DNA from: Diplonema papillatum
Taxonomy: Eukaryota; Euglenozoa; Diplonemea; Diplonemida; Diplonemidae
Reading direction: 5' to 3'
NCBI GenBank assembly: GCA_030068145.1
Contig: JAPJBO010000293.1
Coordinates: 1 to 64,000 of the forward strand
DNA length: 64,000 bases
Below are positions 54,500 to 61,326 of this stretch, in pieces. The translations under genes and the position numbers were made by a program. The notes under the pieces are model-generated. The model had not been told where the DNA came from. It searched no databases and saw only the letters and a program-made list of their open reading frames with translations. How positions within the stretch are numbered: the stretch's first letter is position 1; the number at the start of each line of letters is the position of its first letter.

Positions 54500-54550
54500 C
54501 AGGGATTTTCCCCTTTAGTGAAAAAAAAAAGTTCACTAAAAAAAAAAAAA
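54500..54550. repeat. 51-bp target-site duplication, left
   Basis: CAGGGATTTTCCCCTTTAGTG, poly-A, TTCACTAAA, poly-A. It matches 60238-60288 with only a small A/G difference. The two copies flank the LINE exactly. Confidence 0.8.
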
Positions 54551-54551
54551 T

Positions 54552-54637
54552 ACCAACGATTTAAAAGCTACAGTTTCTGTACTTTATTGTTTCTGTACTT
54601 TATTGTTTCTGTACTTTATTGTTTCTGTACTTTATTG
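54552..54637 (+). other. spliced-leader exon plus three truncated SL copies
   Basis: 54552-54589 reads ACCAACGATTTAAAAG, CTACAG, then TTTCTGTACTTTATTG. From memory this is the Diplonema SL exon. The final 16 nt are repeated exactly at 54590-54605, 54606-54621 and 54622-54637. The repeated unit is precisely what follows the internal CTACAG of the SL. No SL intron (GTATG...) follows, so this is exon sequence captured from a trans-spliced RNA and not an SL RNA gene. Confidence 0.85.
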
Positions 54638-54673
54638 CGAACTTTCACTCAAAAAAAAAAAAAAAGTACCAAC

Positions 54674-55788
54674 ATGGCAAGCGAGGGAGAGATGCGAACT
54701 ATTACAGCGGAGAGCCTACACCAACAGCTAAAGGGCTGGATGTGCTTGAGCGGAGACGTCGCCCGGTTTGAGGCGGTGCTGCATGATATGGCCGCGTACG
54801 TTGACTCCGAGGGGCTGCTGCATTGCGGCAACCTCTATGCGAGGTGCGCGGCCAAGATGGCACCCATCCGACCGGGAGCCAACGTCGAGGCGGTCCTAGA
54901 GCTGTGCGCTGAACGGGGTTTTGCGGCCTACGTGGCCGAGTGGGCAATGGAGACTCAAAAAACCAACTCGACATCTGGGTCCGAAAGACCACCCGGGAGG
55001 ATGGGTTGGTCAAACCCTTCAAAGAGATCCGACGCGCGATGGAAAAGGAAGGCCTAAAGGGGCACGTAGTACGACGGACAGGCGCAAAATATGAAGTCAA
55101 GCTGACAGACGACAGCAGCGAAGCGCAGTGGTGCGAGTTCGCAGGACGCTTAGACTTGTGCGGACTGGGAGTTCAGTACCAGGGGACCTGGATAAATACG
55201 GTCGAAGGGCAAGAGCGACGCAAAAGAGAGCGGGTCGAGAAGGAGGCGAAGAGCTACGGGGCAGTGGGCTTGGACTCGCACTTCGCACGCTTTGAAGTAA
55301 ACGCCATTCTCAGTGAGGAAGGGTGGAAAACCGAGGACGTGCAGGTGAGACCCGTCTACGCACTGGGAAGAGGAACTTTCCGAATCGAAGGACTGACCGA
55401 AGAGCAGCAGTTGGAGCTAGCCAGGGGACCGTACGCAACCCCGTTCGGAAGCACAGTGCGTTTCGGCACCCTCGAACACCTGGTACCCAAAGAGCCGCAG
55501 TGGAGACGAGCGAGCGACACAACACCAAAGGCAGGCGAACGGAGCGAGCAGAAGACGCAGGAAGGGCCGACCGCCGCCGACGCCGCAGACCCCCCGCAGG
55601 TAGCCGAACTACCCGAGGACGACGAGCCGACAAAAATCATCGAAGACGCCGACCCGAAACCTACGAACAAACGACCCCGAGACTCAACCGGAAGCACCGA
55701 GCAGGAGAAGAAAAGACCGGACGCGGAGAAGGGACGACTGAACGGCAAAGGGCAGAAGGGAGGTAGGGGCACACCTAGACGAAACTAA
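54674..55788 (+). CDS. LINE ORF1 protein, one frame break
   Basis: The ATG at 54674 follows AGTACCAAC; the protein starts MASEGEMRTITAESLHQQLK. The frame runs to about 54957. The continuation lies in the -1 frame (KNQLDIWVRKTTREDGLVKP onward) and ends at 55788. The switch coincides with an A6 run (CAAAAAACC, 54956-54961), so a lost A or programmed slippage are both possible. The middle part alternates strands and helices like a nucleic-acid-binding fold. The C-terminus is Lys/Arg/Asp-rich. No zinc knuckle is seen. The position before an APE-RT ORF marks it as the nucleic-acid chaperone-type ORF1. Confidence 0.65.
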
Positions 55789-57350
55789 GCGCAAAAGCTA
55801 CCCAGACGGACAATCCCAACGTGGTCGTAACCACGGAGGGAGCAACCAACAAAATCTATCACCTAACTCCCTTCCCCCCTACATCAACGAGCGGAGAACC
55901 CCACAAACAACAACGGTTGGTAGTACTAAGCGGGAACGTCTGCTGCAAGAAGCCCTTGGTTCTTTTCTTTCGACTGCTGCCGGAAGCAGAACTGCTCGCT
56001 GTCAACGAAGTTGGTTTTCCCCGCCAAACCTTCGAAAACGAAGCACACAAAGCCGGGTGGATGGTAGTAGCGGCAGCCTGCCAAGAGGAGCGACGAGGTC
56101 CGGTCGTAAGAAGCGCGATCCTAGTCCGAAGCAACTCGCAACTCACCTGCACGCGCACCGGCTACAACGCAACGGCATGCTTTGCAGACCTACAACACAG
56201 AGGGACAACCCTGAGGTTAGTGAGCGTCTATGTACCCTGCAATAAACCCGCGCATGAAGTTGAAAAGCTGGCAAAGTGGATAATACACCGAACAAAACGC
56301 GCCAACGACTTCCTAATCGTGGGAGATTTCAACAGCCGCACGACCCCGCACGTAGAAAGCGCCATACGCACAGAGCGGTACAGGGAACTAGTACAGGGTC
56401 GGACGACGTTCATAAGAGGGTCCGCGATGACAACGCTTGACCGGGCCTACACACCCCGACGCTCTGCAACGACGCTAAAGGAGATAGCCTTCACGGGCGG
56501 AAGTGACCACGCAGTACTCGTACTCGAAACACAGCACCTCAGCGCAACGCCAATTCCAACTCAACGCCACCCCAGAAAGAACTTCCACCTGCCAGCGGAT
56601 ACTTTCTCGAACATCACAAAGACCATGAAGGACGAATCGCTGCCAACGCCCATAACCGTGCGAAGTACGAAACAAGCTCGGCTCGAGAAGGGCATAAAAA
56701 CACGCCTGCAACAACGGATATCCTTGAGAGCAGCCAGCAACATCGAGGAGGTACAAAGACTCAACTCCGAGATACGCAACATACGAAGGAAGCTCATCAT
56801 CCACCTCAACACACACTGCGACGAAGTCAAGCCACCACGGCTCCCGTACAAGCCACCGCCAGCCGAAAATGTCACCACTTTCATCGACTTTTTCAGAGCA
56901 CGTTTCAAAGCGACCACCGACCCCGCACCAACACCACCAGACGGTGGGTTCTGCACCATCGATGAGGACCAAGTTCTTGAAGCAGCGAAGACCATTAAAA
57001 CCAGAGCGCGAACTGCCGACTATTCCGCCACATATTTGACGAAAATGAAACGCGACGAAGCAAAGGTGATTGCGGACGAGTTCAATCGCTGGCTTGCCTC
57101 TGGAATACCAATGGAATTCGCCACAGCATGGACCTTTCTGATTCGAAAACCAAGAACCACCAGCAACGACCCCTCAAACTACCGGCCCATCGCCATCCTC
57201 ACCCTGTTCGTGAAGCTCTACCACACCGCCATTTTCCTCGCCTTTCGGGAGACAGCATACGAATCTGTGAAGCAACATACATTCCAGTACGGAAGCGTCA
57301 AGGCGAGCGGGCTCCACGAGATAATCGCCCAGGCGCAACAATGGCTGCGT
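55767..57350 (+). CDS. LINE ORF2, endonuclease and N-terminal RT part
   Basis: The frame opens at 55767, overlapping the end of ORF1 by about 20 nt in the -1 frame. No ATG occurs until about 56061, inside the endonuclease domain. Earlier residues are conserved-looking APE motifs: VVLSGNVCC (Asn) and AVNEVGF (Glu). Later motifs are VSVYVPC, IVGDFNS and GSDHAVLV, so all catalytic APE residues are present. RT begins near TAWTFLIRKPRTTSNDPSNY and YRPIAILTL. Translation therefore probably enters from ORF1 by frameshift or reinitiation at a non-AUG codon. The frame is lost near 57345, where the RT continues in the +1 frame; it stays open as nonsense to 57653. Confidence 0.8.
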
Positions 57351-59181
57351 GGTGCTCATCACAGACGTGCAAGCGGCGTACGACAATGTAGACCACGACA
57401 CGCTCGAACGGGACGTCAGGCGAACGATGGGAGCCCAATGGGCAAACACAATCCGCAGTGTCATCACAAACCAGTGGTACAGTCTCACACTCGAACCAGG
57501 TTTTACCACGCCAATGCGAATGACGAGAGGCGTAACGCAGGGCTCTGTGCTGAGTGTTGCACTGTACCTTTTCTACACGCGAAAGCCTCCCGAAACCCGT
57601 GCGGACTACACGAGAGCGATCGTCGACGACATCACAACGCTGACAACCGCTGAAAACGCCGCCAACGACCTACGTGCAATCGAAGGCTGGGCAGAGGAAA
57701 GACATTTCACGCTTGCTGAGAAGAAGACGAAGCTCGTCTCGAAGACCCCGTGGACCCTCACAACAACAACGCGTGCCATAAAGACGATCCAAACGACAAG
57801 ACTCCTCGGTGCATGCTTACACGCAACGGCAACAAAAACCTGCAGCAGGAATGAAAGGGTCATCGAGGCGTACTGCCGGACAACGGACCTGATCTCCCAG
57901 GCAAAGTACAAACCGACGATCCGAAAAGCAGCAGAGCACCGAACTTACGCAGTCGCACGCCTCTCGTTACACTGCCTGTCCGTCTGCTTCGACCCCACCG
58001 CACAGAAAGTACAAGCAGCGGGCTGGAAGCTAGAGCCAAAGCACTATGGAGGAAGGGGGATCAAGGGGTTCGGAACGTGCAAAAGCGGATACGGGATCAC
58101 GAACATCGCAGACTACACCACCATACAACGAACCCGCGCCCACCTTGCCAGCGGCTCAGACAGGCCAATCCCAACAAGAGGCATCACACGCCGGAAACCA
58201 AACCCAACAAACGCACCTGCGTTCCTCAACGCCCTGCGCGAGCTCCTGGCCAACGCGCCCACACAGACGAGCGACTGCGAAGTCGCAACCGACGGAGGCT
58301 GGTACGCGAACGAGTCAGTGGGCACGATCGGCATCGCTATCGGGGGAAGACGACTCGGTGCGGTAATAGTCGGAAGAGTGAGCTCGAGCACACAAGCCGA
58401 ACTAGCAGCCATGCTCTGCCTCGCAACAGCGCTGAAGATGACGCAAATCCCGCGAGAACGCGTGCACTGGTGGACGGACTCGCAGACAGCCCTGGCGCGA
58501 CAACGCCACGAAGACAAGGAAGACCTGTACTCGCGCGCCCTGCACGACGAAGCGATTCCGCAGATCCAGTGGACAAAGGGACATGCTGACTGTGTGACCC
58601 TCAACCAAGCCGACAAAGCAACGAGGGAAGCTTACACGGCGGGGGAGTACCACATGGAAATGGAGTACTGCTTCCACTACTGGAACGAGGCGTACATCTA
58701 CCTGCACCCGGAAGGTTTGCAATGTGAAGCACCCGCCGACTTCGTGAAGAGAATCTTGCGCGAGCAGCGAGAAGCCCACGTGATACGTGCCATCGAAGCA
58801 CTCGTCCCGCGAAGTCTGGCAGAGCCGAAGCGCATGCGAAGACTCGGAAGAATACCGGGTGCAGCAGACCTGCTACAGGCGATCATCAGACGCACCATCC
58901 TACAGCAACAAACCCGCCAGATGTGCAACGTCCGACATTGCACCGCGTATGCAACTGCACAGCATGTGTTGCTAACAGACGACCCAGCACACAATGAGGG
59001 CGGCCGCGCACCCACCGACGACTGGAAGACCCTCCACGGCCTCCTCGAAGCATACGCAAAGAAGCAGGTGGCAGCAATAGCTCTCGTCCGCAACAGACTC
59101 AGCAGACAATGCACAGAAGACAGGGCCGTTCAACGATGGATTGCAGCATGCCGACTATCAATCAACCAACTCCGCTCATAG
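57349..59181 (+). CDS. LINE ORF2, RT core, RNase H and C-terminus
   Basis: RT motif A is VLITDVQAAYDNVD, motif B RGVTQGSVLS, motif C AIVDDITTL (Asp-Asp, with Val replacing the usual Ala/Val-x). RNase H has all acidic residues: VATDGGWYANES, STQAELAAM, WWTDSQTAL and the His-Asp of WTKGHADCVTLNQADKA. A terminal MCNVRHC...AQHVLLTDDP resembles the Cys/His end found after RNase H in this superfamily. The protein copies LINE RNA onto nicked target DNA. The single +1 frame break at about 57345 separates it from the endonuclease. Confidence 0.85.
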   Translation: MVLITDVQAAYDNVDHDTLERDVRRTMGAQWANTIRSVITNQWYSLTLEPGFTTPMRMTRGVTQGSVLSVALYLFYTRKPPETRADYTRAIVDDITTLTTAENAANDLRAIEGWAEERHFTLAEKKTKLVSKTPWTLTTTTRAIKTIQTTRLLGACLHATATKTCSRNERVIEAYCRTTDLISQAKYKPTIRKAAEHRTYAVARLSLHCLSVCFDPTAQKVQAAGWKLEPKHYGGRGIKGFGTCKSGYGITNIADYTTIQRTRAHLASGSDRPIPTRGITRRKPNPTNAPAFLNALRELLANAPTQTSDCEVATDGGWYANESVGTIGIAIGGRRLGAVIVGRVSSSTQAELAAMLCLATALKMTQIPRERVHWWTDSQTALARQRHEDKEDLYSRALHDEAIPQIQWTKGHADCVTLNQADKATREAYTAGEYHMEMEYCFHYWNEAYIYLHPEGLQCEAPADFVKRILREQREAHVIRAIEALVPRSLAEPKRMRRLGRIPGAADLLQAIIRRTILQQQTRQMCNVRHCTAYATAQHVLLTDDPAHNEGGRAPTDDWKTLHGLLEAYAKKQVAAIALVRNRLSRQCTEDRAVQRWIAACRLSINQLRS

Positions 59182-59190
59182 AGAAAATCA

Positions 59191-59694
59191 ATGAAAACTC
59201 GAAACTTGCTAGAGCACATCATCAACAGACACAACGAAGTGAACGATTCGCGTTCTCGTATGCCGTTGGGTCAAACAAGGACAAAAAAAAAGAAGAAAAC
59301 TCCACCAAGTCATAGCCACGAGGCGACCGATTGGCAAAAAAAAACTGCCGTCATTAAACAAAAAACCCCCAAAAAACGAGAGCTCCCCCCCCCCGAAAAA
59401 CGCCTCAGCACCCGAAACAAACCCGCAGGCACCTCCCCCAAAACGAGAGCCACTCCCCCCGAAAAACGCACCAGCACCGAAAACAAACCCGCAGGCACTC
59501 AAGAGAAAAGACCCCCCGGTGGGACTGAGCAACCCACAACTCTTGAAAAAACCGCGCCCCCCGGGGGACGACCAGCCACCGCCGCCCCCCCCGAAAAAGG
59601 CTCCCTCCCCCCCAGAAATAATAATAATCGCCGCCCATCAGCCACCGCCCCGGCTGAAGCGAAAAGACCCCCCCTGCTCCATACTCCTGGGTGA
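59191..59694 (+). CDS. Pro/Lys-rich frame after LINE ORF2
   Basis: An ATG lies 9 nt after the ORF2 stop and in the same frame, opening 167 codons of Lys/Pro/Thr-rich low-complexity protein. It includes a direct repeat of about 67 bp (AAAACGAGAGC to AACCCGCAGGCAC, from 59373 and 59440). A second Pro-rich frame (59519-60091) overlaps it. This may be a read-through C-terminal tail, a third ORF, or simply C-rich 3' UTR. Low complexity argues for caution. Confidence 0.25.
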   Translation: MKTRNLLEHIINRHNEVNDSRSRMPLGQTRTKKKKKTPPSHSHEATDWQKKTAVIKQKTPKKRELPPPEKRLSTRNKPAGTSPKTRATPPEKRTSTENKPAGTQEKRPPGGTEQPTTLEKTAPPGGRPATAAPPEKGSLPPRNNNNRRPSATAPAEAKRPPLLHTPG

Positions 59695-60237
59695 GAAATA
59701 CTGCCCCAAAAAAGCCCGCCTTCAGGACCCCAGCCTGAGCAAGAGCGCCCAAAACACCCAGGTGCAGCAGCAACCTCACCCGAGGCACTCTCCCAGACCG
59801 GTCGCAAGCCGGTCGCTTGTGGAGGGTGTCTCCCCGAGTGAGTTGAGCGGCGTGATCGTACCCTTGCCACAGTCTGCCGGTTCAACCGGACTCGCCCAGA
59901 CTGGACGATCACCAGGTACCCCAACGACCGTAGAAAAACGGAATTGGGGACCGCCAAGCCGCGCCACAGCGAGCGCAGGGGTTCCGACGCAAGATCCGGC
60001 TAGCCACCGGGCACCCCTGCGGCAGACAGCGCAAGGACTGGCCAAGTCCCGCGTGGAGGGTGGCCCCTCCATCGCGCCGCGTACACGGTGAGAACCGTGG
60101 GTAGCACCCTCTGCATCTCTCGAATCTCTGAGTTAGGTGGTTTTAGTGGGTAAGTCCCGACGGAAAAACGGACAGTCCCACACTCACAAGTTTGGTCCGG
60201 CTTGTGGTCGTGCGTCATGCATTTCCCCCCTCAGATA

Positions 60238-60288
60238 CAGGGATTTTCCCCTTTAGTGAAAAAAAAAAAATTCACTAAAAAAAAAAAA
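60238..60288. repeat. 51-bp target-site duplication, right
   Basis: Same sequence as 54500-54550. Beyond it the locus continues TTTCCCAAAATGGGC, as in the paralogous stretch at 60741, which helps define the pre-insertion site. Confidence 0.8.
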
Positions 60289-61326
60289 TTTCCCAAAATG
60301 GGCTTGGTGAAAAAACTTTTTTCACTAAAGGGATTTTGCGTTGCTGGGTGTAGGTGGTCAGGGCGCGGGTTGTGGTGGACAGTGTGGGTGGGCGTGGGTG
60401 GTGGGCGCTGGTGGTGGAGTGGGTGCGTGTTGTGTGTGGTCGGGGCGTGGGTTGTGGGTGGTAAGGGCGCGGGTTGTGGTGGACAGTGTGGGTGGGCGAG
60501 CTAGCACCCCAAACTTGAGTGGGGTGAAGGGCCAGAGGGACCCCCGCTTATGGGGCTACGAGGTCAACGACGCGTACCACACACAGACAGACACAGGCAC
60601 GTGTCGACTGGCACCCACACCACACCACACCGGCAGAAAAACTTTTCTGCCGGAGTGAAATTTTTTTTCACCACGGGTTTGGCCCGAAACTGGTGAGTGG
60701 AAAAACCCCTGCTCAGATACCAAAAAAAAAAAAAAAAAAAATTCCCAAAATGGGCTTGGTGAAATAACTTTTTTCACTAAAGGGATTTTGCGTTGCTGGG
60801 TGTAGGTGGTCAGGGCGCGGGTTGTGGTGGACAGTGCGGGTGGGCGTGGGTGGTGGGCGCTGGTGGTGGAGTGGGTGCGTGTTGTGTGTGTTCAGGGTGT
60901 GGTTTAAGCGGCCCAACAACAGGTCTGTATGATGCGGACCGTATCCAAGGCGGAAATCGAGTCAACCAGTGTCCGGATTTGACGACCGGATTCAACGACT
61001 TCAACGACTTCAACGACTTACTTCGTTCACGGCATCATGTGTAGCTGTTCTGCATGTTCTCTGAATCCGTTTCCTGCTTGATCTGAAGAGGAGCAAGGGG
61101 GTAGGGAGTGAGCTAGCACCCCAAACTTGAGTGGGGTGAAGGGCCAGAGGGACCCCCGCTTATGGGGCTACGAGGTCAACGACGCGTACCACACACAGAC
61201 AGACACAGGCACGTGTCGACTGGCACCCACACCACACCACACCGGCAGAAAAACTTTTCTGCCGGAGTGAAATTTTTTTTCACCACGGGTTTGGCCCGAA
61301 ACTGGTGAGTGGAAAAACCCCTGCTC
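60289..61326. repeat. X-Y-X-Y duplicated blocks
   Basis: Block X (TCCCAAAATGGGCTTGGTGA to the GGTGGTGGAGTGGGTGCG G/T-rich part) occurs at 60289-60497 and 60741-60904. Block Y (217 bp, GAGCTAGCACCCCAAACTTG to GGAAAAACCCCTGCTC) occurs at 60498-60714 and 61110-61326 and is almost identical. Y carries hairpins GGCAGAAAAACTTTTCTGCC and AGTGAAATTTTTTTTCACC. Each Y is followed by a short spacer and a long A run. A 10-bp TTCAACGACT array is at 60988-61018. Confidence 0.85.

Follow-up and report, generated by a model that had tools for sequence, protein, structure and literature searches.

How does a LINE come to carry, at its 5′ end, one spliced leader (SL) followed by three pieces of the same leader? 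The question is raised by positions 54552-54637 of the window, by which we mean the whole 64,000-nucleotide stretch of DNA of the marine flagellate Diplonema papillatum analysed here (Table 1). The 5′ ends of LINEs are readily lost, and an internal promoter is generally held to be necessary for their survival. Relict SLs and mRNA recycling were reportedly described in dinoflagellates by Slamovits and Keeling in 2008 (as cited in PMC3229502 and PMC6050394). The first-pass annotation of the window explained the array by serial capture, in which LINE RNA was trans-spliced, reinserted together with its SL and trans-spliced again at the AG inside the old SL, implying four cycles.

Table 1. Features of the SL stack and its LINE in the window.
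Feature	Position	Strand	Description
Upstream flank	54502..54551	+	Repeat ending in an A-run and T, host of the element; near copy at about 60236-60288
SL nt 2-39, youngest SL	54552..54589	+	5′ junction of the insertion; compared with SL RNA genes L070/L071
Internal AG of youngest SL	54572-54573	+	Inside the window SL
SL remainder 1 (SL nt 24-39)	54590..54605	+	Exact 16-mer
SL remainder 2	54606..54621	+	Exact 16-mer
SL remainder 3 (oldest)	54622..54637	+	Exact 16-mer
Probable captured flank of an earlier insertion site	54638..54667	+	CGAACTTTCACTC, A-run, GT
LINE ORF1, frameshift-broken in window copy	54674..55788	+	ORF reading and copy alignment
LINE ORF2, broken near 57347 in window copy	55821..59181	+	Weak apurinic-type endonuclease match, reverse transcriptase, probable RNase H
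3′ UTR and element 3′ end	59182..59365	+	Similarity to three other copies stops; long A-run follows in C179 and C1070

The array begins with ACCAACGATTTAAAAGCTACAG joined to TTTCTGTACTTTATTG (54552-54589) and continues with three further exact TTTCTGTACTTTATTG units up to 54637, all four units being identical in sequence. In SL RNA genes of the same genome, read in C1335 and C317, the exon is AACCAACGATTTAAAAGCTACAGTTTCTGTACTTTATTG, 39 nt long, and the intron begins with GTACTTTAAC; L070 comes from the C1335 array with its 1,240-bp spacing, L071 was the second gene read, and three more were found in the sample of one-unit loci described below. The published SL of the species has an exon of 39 bp and an intron of 75 nt, and 110 SL RNA genes are given, in arrays with 5S and U2 (PMC10161547, in part). 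This check against the organism's own SL RNA genes gave a match and favours the reading as an SL stack. Since the genes specify a 39-nt exon, the window SL is without its first nucleotide only: the top of the stack corresponds to SL nt 2-39 (38 nt) and is preceded by a T instead of the SL's A, so that the annotated full SL falls one base short of a complete exon, while the three exact repeats stand. Each 16-nt remainder is exactly SL nt 24-39, the part of the exon after the internal CTACAG, as had been noticed. The remainders therefore start immediately behind an AG of the organism's own SL exon, with the fuller SL upstream and the shortened units downstream, which is the arrangement of relict stacks in reinserted cDNA. 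A tandem array on C91 was rejected as a set of SL RNA genes; its repeat units of 1,994 bp (L040, C91:16500-23500) each carry an SL-like sequence changed to GATACAG, without the SL intron.

The probability of an ordinary minisatellite or a chance run of repeats is practically nil. With up to two mismatches allowed, the 16-mer occurs in the window at these four places only, compared with a mean of 0.01 in 100 shuffles, and the units are SL sequence according to the SL RNA genes. The genome searched comprised 271,365,524 bases in 2,910 contigs (the published assembly has 6,181 contigs and 280 Mb; PMC10161547, in part), and all counts from these DNA searches are lower bounds; the 16-mer gave 701 matches and the reversed 16-mer none. 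A variant SL RNA gene with an exon already stacked is exceedingly improbable, as a single unit is seen in each of the five SL RNA genes read and none of 20 exact stacks in the genome is followed by the SL intron start. Microsatellite, chance and variant SL gene were thus all rejected on the basis of the shuffles, the reversed control, the SL gene match and the missing intron.

These exact stacks, defined by at least two exact units, derive from 22 overlapping matches. Their 40-nt upstream flanks are of 19 kinds and their downstream 12-mers of 17, some of these coming from a single family; an AG precedes the first unit at the 20 sites. A search allowing up to three mismatches returned 25 matches and added a third unit at C1253 as well as the sites C1718 and C1763, and C173 (L161), probably also C772 and C1895, carry imperfect or cut stacks. 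SL ends lying 0-30 nt apart form 27 pairs, 24 of them (at 21 places) with a period of 16; the others are C1127 and C1648, with an A-run between the ends, and the irregular C1895. Because none of the 27 pairs showed a simple 22-nt unit, which would start from the SL's other AG, or a 39-nt SL duplication, the unit border is tied to CTACAG. Variation of a microsatellite kind, unrelated to the AG, which the annotation had named as the outcome to look for against its reading, was not seen.

For comparison, we examined 88 one-unit loci, a non-random sample consisting of the first 100 of the 701 places in contig order minus 12 (three near contig ends, five from the C91 array and two each from the C171 and C179 stacks). 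Three of these are SL RNA genes, leaving 85 one-unit relicts, among which L161 is a cut two-unit stack counted as one. The SL starts at nt 2 in 35 relicts, at nt 1 in nine and at nt 3 in six, and seven have no SL upstream of the 16-mer; as many begin at SL nt 1-3, cDNAs reaching the 5′ end of the mRNA were often inserted whole. A run of eight A's within 60 nt downstream was found at 9 of the 20 stacked sites, not all of them independent, versus 9 of the 85 one-unit loci (Fisher p 0.001). Four stacked sites were probed downstream for domains, with RVT_1 found in three and an endonuclease domain in one. The commonest SL-led start in the one-unit sample, GCTGCTCACGCG (17/85; L001, L005, L095, L101 and others), is absent from the 20 exact stacked sites.

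Based on the published number of SL RNA genes, multi-unit loci make up an estimated 24 or so of 569 relict loci. With these 24 loci and 110 SL RNA genes taken, a constant chance per round predicts about 0.04 four-unit loci, and family differences or slippage could explain the excess represented by the window. Slippage would here mean two captures followed by tandem growth of the 16-bp unit during replication or reverse transcription. We consider this unlikely: the identity of the four window units, the rarity of four units relative to a constant rate and the fact that intermediate copies of the window element were not found all agree with it, but it leaves the first remainder unexplained and does not account for a border at the AG in 24 of 27 pairs. 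Moreover, the number of exact units stops at two in 19 of the 20 exact sites, and a third unit beyond the window is seen at C1253 and possibly at C1895 but at none of the other exact stacked sites, so that the unit does not appear to be expansion-prone. At C173, and probably at C1718, the first unit is cut but the second is complete, which means that these stacks predate the insertion. Decay of older units is not uniform, as one substitution lies in the oldest of the three units at C1253 and another in the youngest unit at C1763.

Stepwise series of the kind predicted by serial capture were found in other families. The junction SL|GTACCGAAAAA marks a LINE family with four places, where one unit follows a 5′-cut SL at C2064, the 5′ part of the unit is missing at C1182, and two and three units stand at C368 and C1253, respectively. 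At C368, the DNA 2.4-3.7 kb downstream contains an open frame of 433 codons and matches RVT_1 with 138 bits. For the junction SL|KTGGCGGGATTATGG we counted 14 copies. One unit is present in ten of them and two units in three; in C2098, an SL is followed by the 7-nt GGATCCC and then by an SL from nt 3. By eye, the one-unit copies have six different flanks, the rest resembling duplications of one insertion, and the two-unit copies have three. Since the two-unit copy C2182 shows zero substitutions relative to several one-unit copies over the 380 nt compared, and C1358 and C1763 differ from C2182 at four sites each, the two-unit forms probably arose more than once. A Pfam scan of one member of this family (L025) gave no match. 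The GTATACAC family has two units at four stacked sites with three flanks, two sites sharing the same flank; a genome search for an exact one-unit copy or progenitor found none.

A further class of loci preserves the sequence between two captures. Scanning for SL ends separated by 31-61 nt yielded 14 matches, nine of which (C298, C593, C772, C1127, C1178, C1443, C1868, C2098 and C2876) we interpret as SL, flank and older SL piece; this reading was made with context for C298, C1127 and C2098 and from the matched string for the other six. The five matches left out comprise the window, the tandem repeats at C10 and C765, which are unrelated, and the two unclear cases C492 and C554. At C554:46097-46169, the matched string runs from an SL end through the SL 3′ part in inverted orientation to another SL end. 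The flank contains a long A-run in seven of the nine loci, and C1648, with a 27-nt spacer, is an additional site of this type and a sister of C1127. An inner part, CTGAAGTACTTTATTG, is common to C298, C772 and C1178, whose outer flanks differ. Likewise, L018, L091, L142 and L149 have related ORF1 starts, yet the A-run-containing leader that joins the SL to the start codon is different in all four, the pattern predicted if every copy had been spliced at an AG flanking the A-run into which it had inserted.

SL-flank-SL loci require a DNA-resident stage between captures, which bears on another explanation, namely that the AG in the leader of an SL-capped mRNA received a second SL by trans-splicing, with no DNA stage. 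We judge this very unlikely. The AG is indeed present in the SL exon itself, and DNA intermediates, none of which were found for the window element, would be unneeded; but a purely RNA-level process does not agree with the SL-flank-SL loci, with the enrichment of stacks before A-run leaders or with one, two and three units at the same junction, none of these points being decisive for a single stack. Taken together, the stacks tied to the AG and the one-two-three series elsewhere uphold serial SL capture through repeated trans-splicing and reinsertion, which we consider a very probable origin of the window stack, whereas the annotated four cycles are not proven for the window copy: four rounds is the minimum under the serial model.

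The window LINE matches RVT_1 with 39.1 bits (cutoff 29.6) and, weakly, the apurinic-type endonuclease domain Exo_endo_phos_2 with 21.8 bits, below the cutoff of 27.4. The genome DNA search gave at least four near-identical copies including the window, the others being C179, C417 and the 5′-cut C1070, with about 98% identity to the window, gaps counted, over 4.5-4.8 kb and pairwise substitutions of 0.26-0.43%; a fifth match, C391, has 80%. The 5′ truncation of C1070 and the long A-runs at the 3′ ends of C179 and C1070 are as in apurinic-type LINEs, while the 3′ A-runs of C417 and the window are short and interrupted. Contrary to the annotation of an active-looking element, both ORFs are broken in the window copy: ORF1 runs for 127 codons to a stop versus 371 in C179 and C417, and compared with its sisters the window copy lacks one base near 54953 and about 23 near 57347, five of which are missing in C179 too. 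No target-site duplication was assigned to the window LINE, whose end A-runs mask any. A 50-bp direct repeat (54502/60236), which could be taken for a target-site duplication enclosing the LINE and 0.9 kb more, was not adopted as such, because copy similarity ends at about 59365, with an A-run in two copies, and because CTCAGATAC precedes both the repeat at 60236 and another copy near 60718. The roughly 870 bp between the LINE 3′ end and the second copy of the upstream repeat (59366-60235) may be a 3′ transduction or a later insertion.

Upstream of ORF1, the leaders of the copies differ. The window has the SL, three units, CGAACTTTCACTC and an A-run, C179 has the SL, one unit and CAAAAAGAAGAACGAGTCGGAAC, and C417 has A-runs and no SL. 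Counting SL remainders per copy, as the annotation had advised, thus gave three, one and none, but no copy of the window element with the CGAAC leader and one, two or three units was found in the genome, nor was a second copy of the C179 leader. The leader 19-mer has 18 genomic occurrences and is joined to an SL only in the window and at C298, a different LINE, where the SL ends at the same CGAACTTTCACTCAAAAAA junction. The oldest window unit adjoins CGAACTTTCACTC(A)n. Among the 17 other genomic places of CGAACTTTCACTCAAAAAA, AG stands directly before CGAAC in ten, AGG in three and neither in three, so the oldest remainder is joined where a genuine acceptor seems to lie; by eye, some ten of the 17 resemble each other further upstream as well. 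Over the stretch common to all in the four-copy alignment, private substitutions number eight in the window, four in C1070, three in C417 and one in C179, and three sites split window and C179 from C417 and C1070. Eight versus one gives p 0.04 for equal rates and is compatible with rounds of 4:2 (p 0.29); the excess in the window agrees with more rounds, which is suggestive only. The ACCAAC at 54668-54673 equals SL nt 2-7 and precedes the ORF1 ATG; it also lies near A-runs in several LINEs (also L037, L019), and at C298 AACCAAC is joined to GTACTTTATTG. The motif could serve as context for the start codon or be what remains of an SL 5′ end after the reverse transcriptase jumped.

Under serial capture, the LINE would reside in DNA beside a sequence containing an AG, polycistronic transcription of the host would read through it, and the SL would be trans-spliced to the nearest usable AG. 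A LINE reverse transcriptase would then copy the capped mRNA back to the SL and insert the copy, frequently into an A-run. One round later, the AG inside the inserted SL would lie nearest, and the new SL would replace the first 23 nt of the old one, leaving the 16-nt remainder. For the window, a genomic repeat of the kind TTTCAAG|CGAACTTTCACTC(A)n may have supplied the AG for the first capture, and the internal AG of the preceding SL may have served in each of the three later ones, which would make four SL additions and, with the present one included, no fewer than five residences in the genome. Extended to the genome, there is about an even chance that a fixed 5′ end is lacking in many Diplonema LINEs and that these borrow transcription and a capped leader from the host, each round either keeping the SL as a portable splice acceptor that leaves a 16-nt tally mark or capturing the flank of the last site. 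The leader would then record, as a minimum, how many generations have passed and where the element has resided, with the SL exon acting as a 3′ splice site that spreads itself.

Relict SLs also form stacks in dinoflagellates, where the repeats are cut after SL nt 7 at an AG and reach a fourth repeat in one EST (PMC3229502, in part; a further source on relict SLs is PMC8045281, in part). As in Diplonema, the remainder starts after an internal AG of the SL, and tandem stacks have the oldest unit downstream. Two or more relicts are given for 5% of dinoflagellate retrogenes (PMC12014239, in part) versus our estimate of about 24 of 569 relict loci. The dinoflagellate data concern genes, mostly as transcript counts, with an SL of 22 nt and a remainder of 15 nt according to the portions of these sources covered, whereas Diplonema has reverse-transcriptase-encoding LINEs in a euglenozoan genome, an SL of 39 nt, a remainder of 16 nt and SL-flank-SL records. 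As mobilising element, LTR elements are favoured for dinoflagellates (PMC6050394, in part), and LINEs have been suggested for viral inserts (PMC10235124, in part).

Among Euglenozoa, trypanosomatid LINE-type elements are also non-LTR retrotransposons but have the Pr77 promoter in their first 77 nt and abundant unspliced transcripts (PMC8190864, in part); in contrast, upstream of the region where ORF1 starts, no sequence is common to the three copies of the window LINE that have a complete ORF1 start. SLACS, CZAR and CRE are SL-linked LINEs as well, which insert into SL RNA genes and encode a restriction-like endonuclease (PMC12278014, in part). Unlike SLACS and CZAR, the window LINE has the SL at its own 5′ end with no SL RNA intron after it, and thus does not lie in an SL RNA gene. 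LINE and SLACS-like genes of D. papillatum are mentioned in PMC10161547, and the parts covered of this source and of PMC11453091 make no mention of SL relicts. The suggestion that the stack was possibly undescribed is thus narrowed by the dinoflagellate stacks; for SL stacks on LINEs or in Euglenozoa, a literature search covering few subscription papers found no report. Similarly, the principle of the proposed generation counter is not new, since dinoflagellate papers describe stacks and the SL number as giving the number of retropositions (PMC6050394, in part), but a counter on LINEs, in a diplonemid lineage and with captured flanks between the marks, appears to be new.

Serial capture would mean that a LINE can be renewed by host trans-splicing and that the trace counts retrotransposition rounds, which are otherwise inferred from divergence, so that part of the ancestry of a jumping gene could be read from its first 90 letters. 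Given reads, such a counter would allow a direct test of the error per round by comparing substitutions with tally marks. SL-tagged recycling, described for dinoflagellate genes, would also be extended to LINEs in an unrelated group, in which the element itself codes for a reverse transcriptase. As a separate observation, L006 (C11:365927-368942, minus strand) has a one-unit SL directly before an open frame of 500 codons with an Astacin peptidase domain (39 bits) and is possibly an SL-tagged retrocopy of a host gene.
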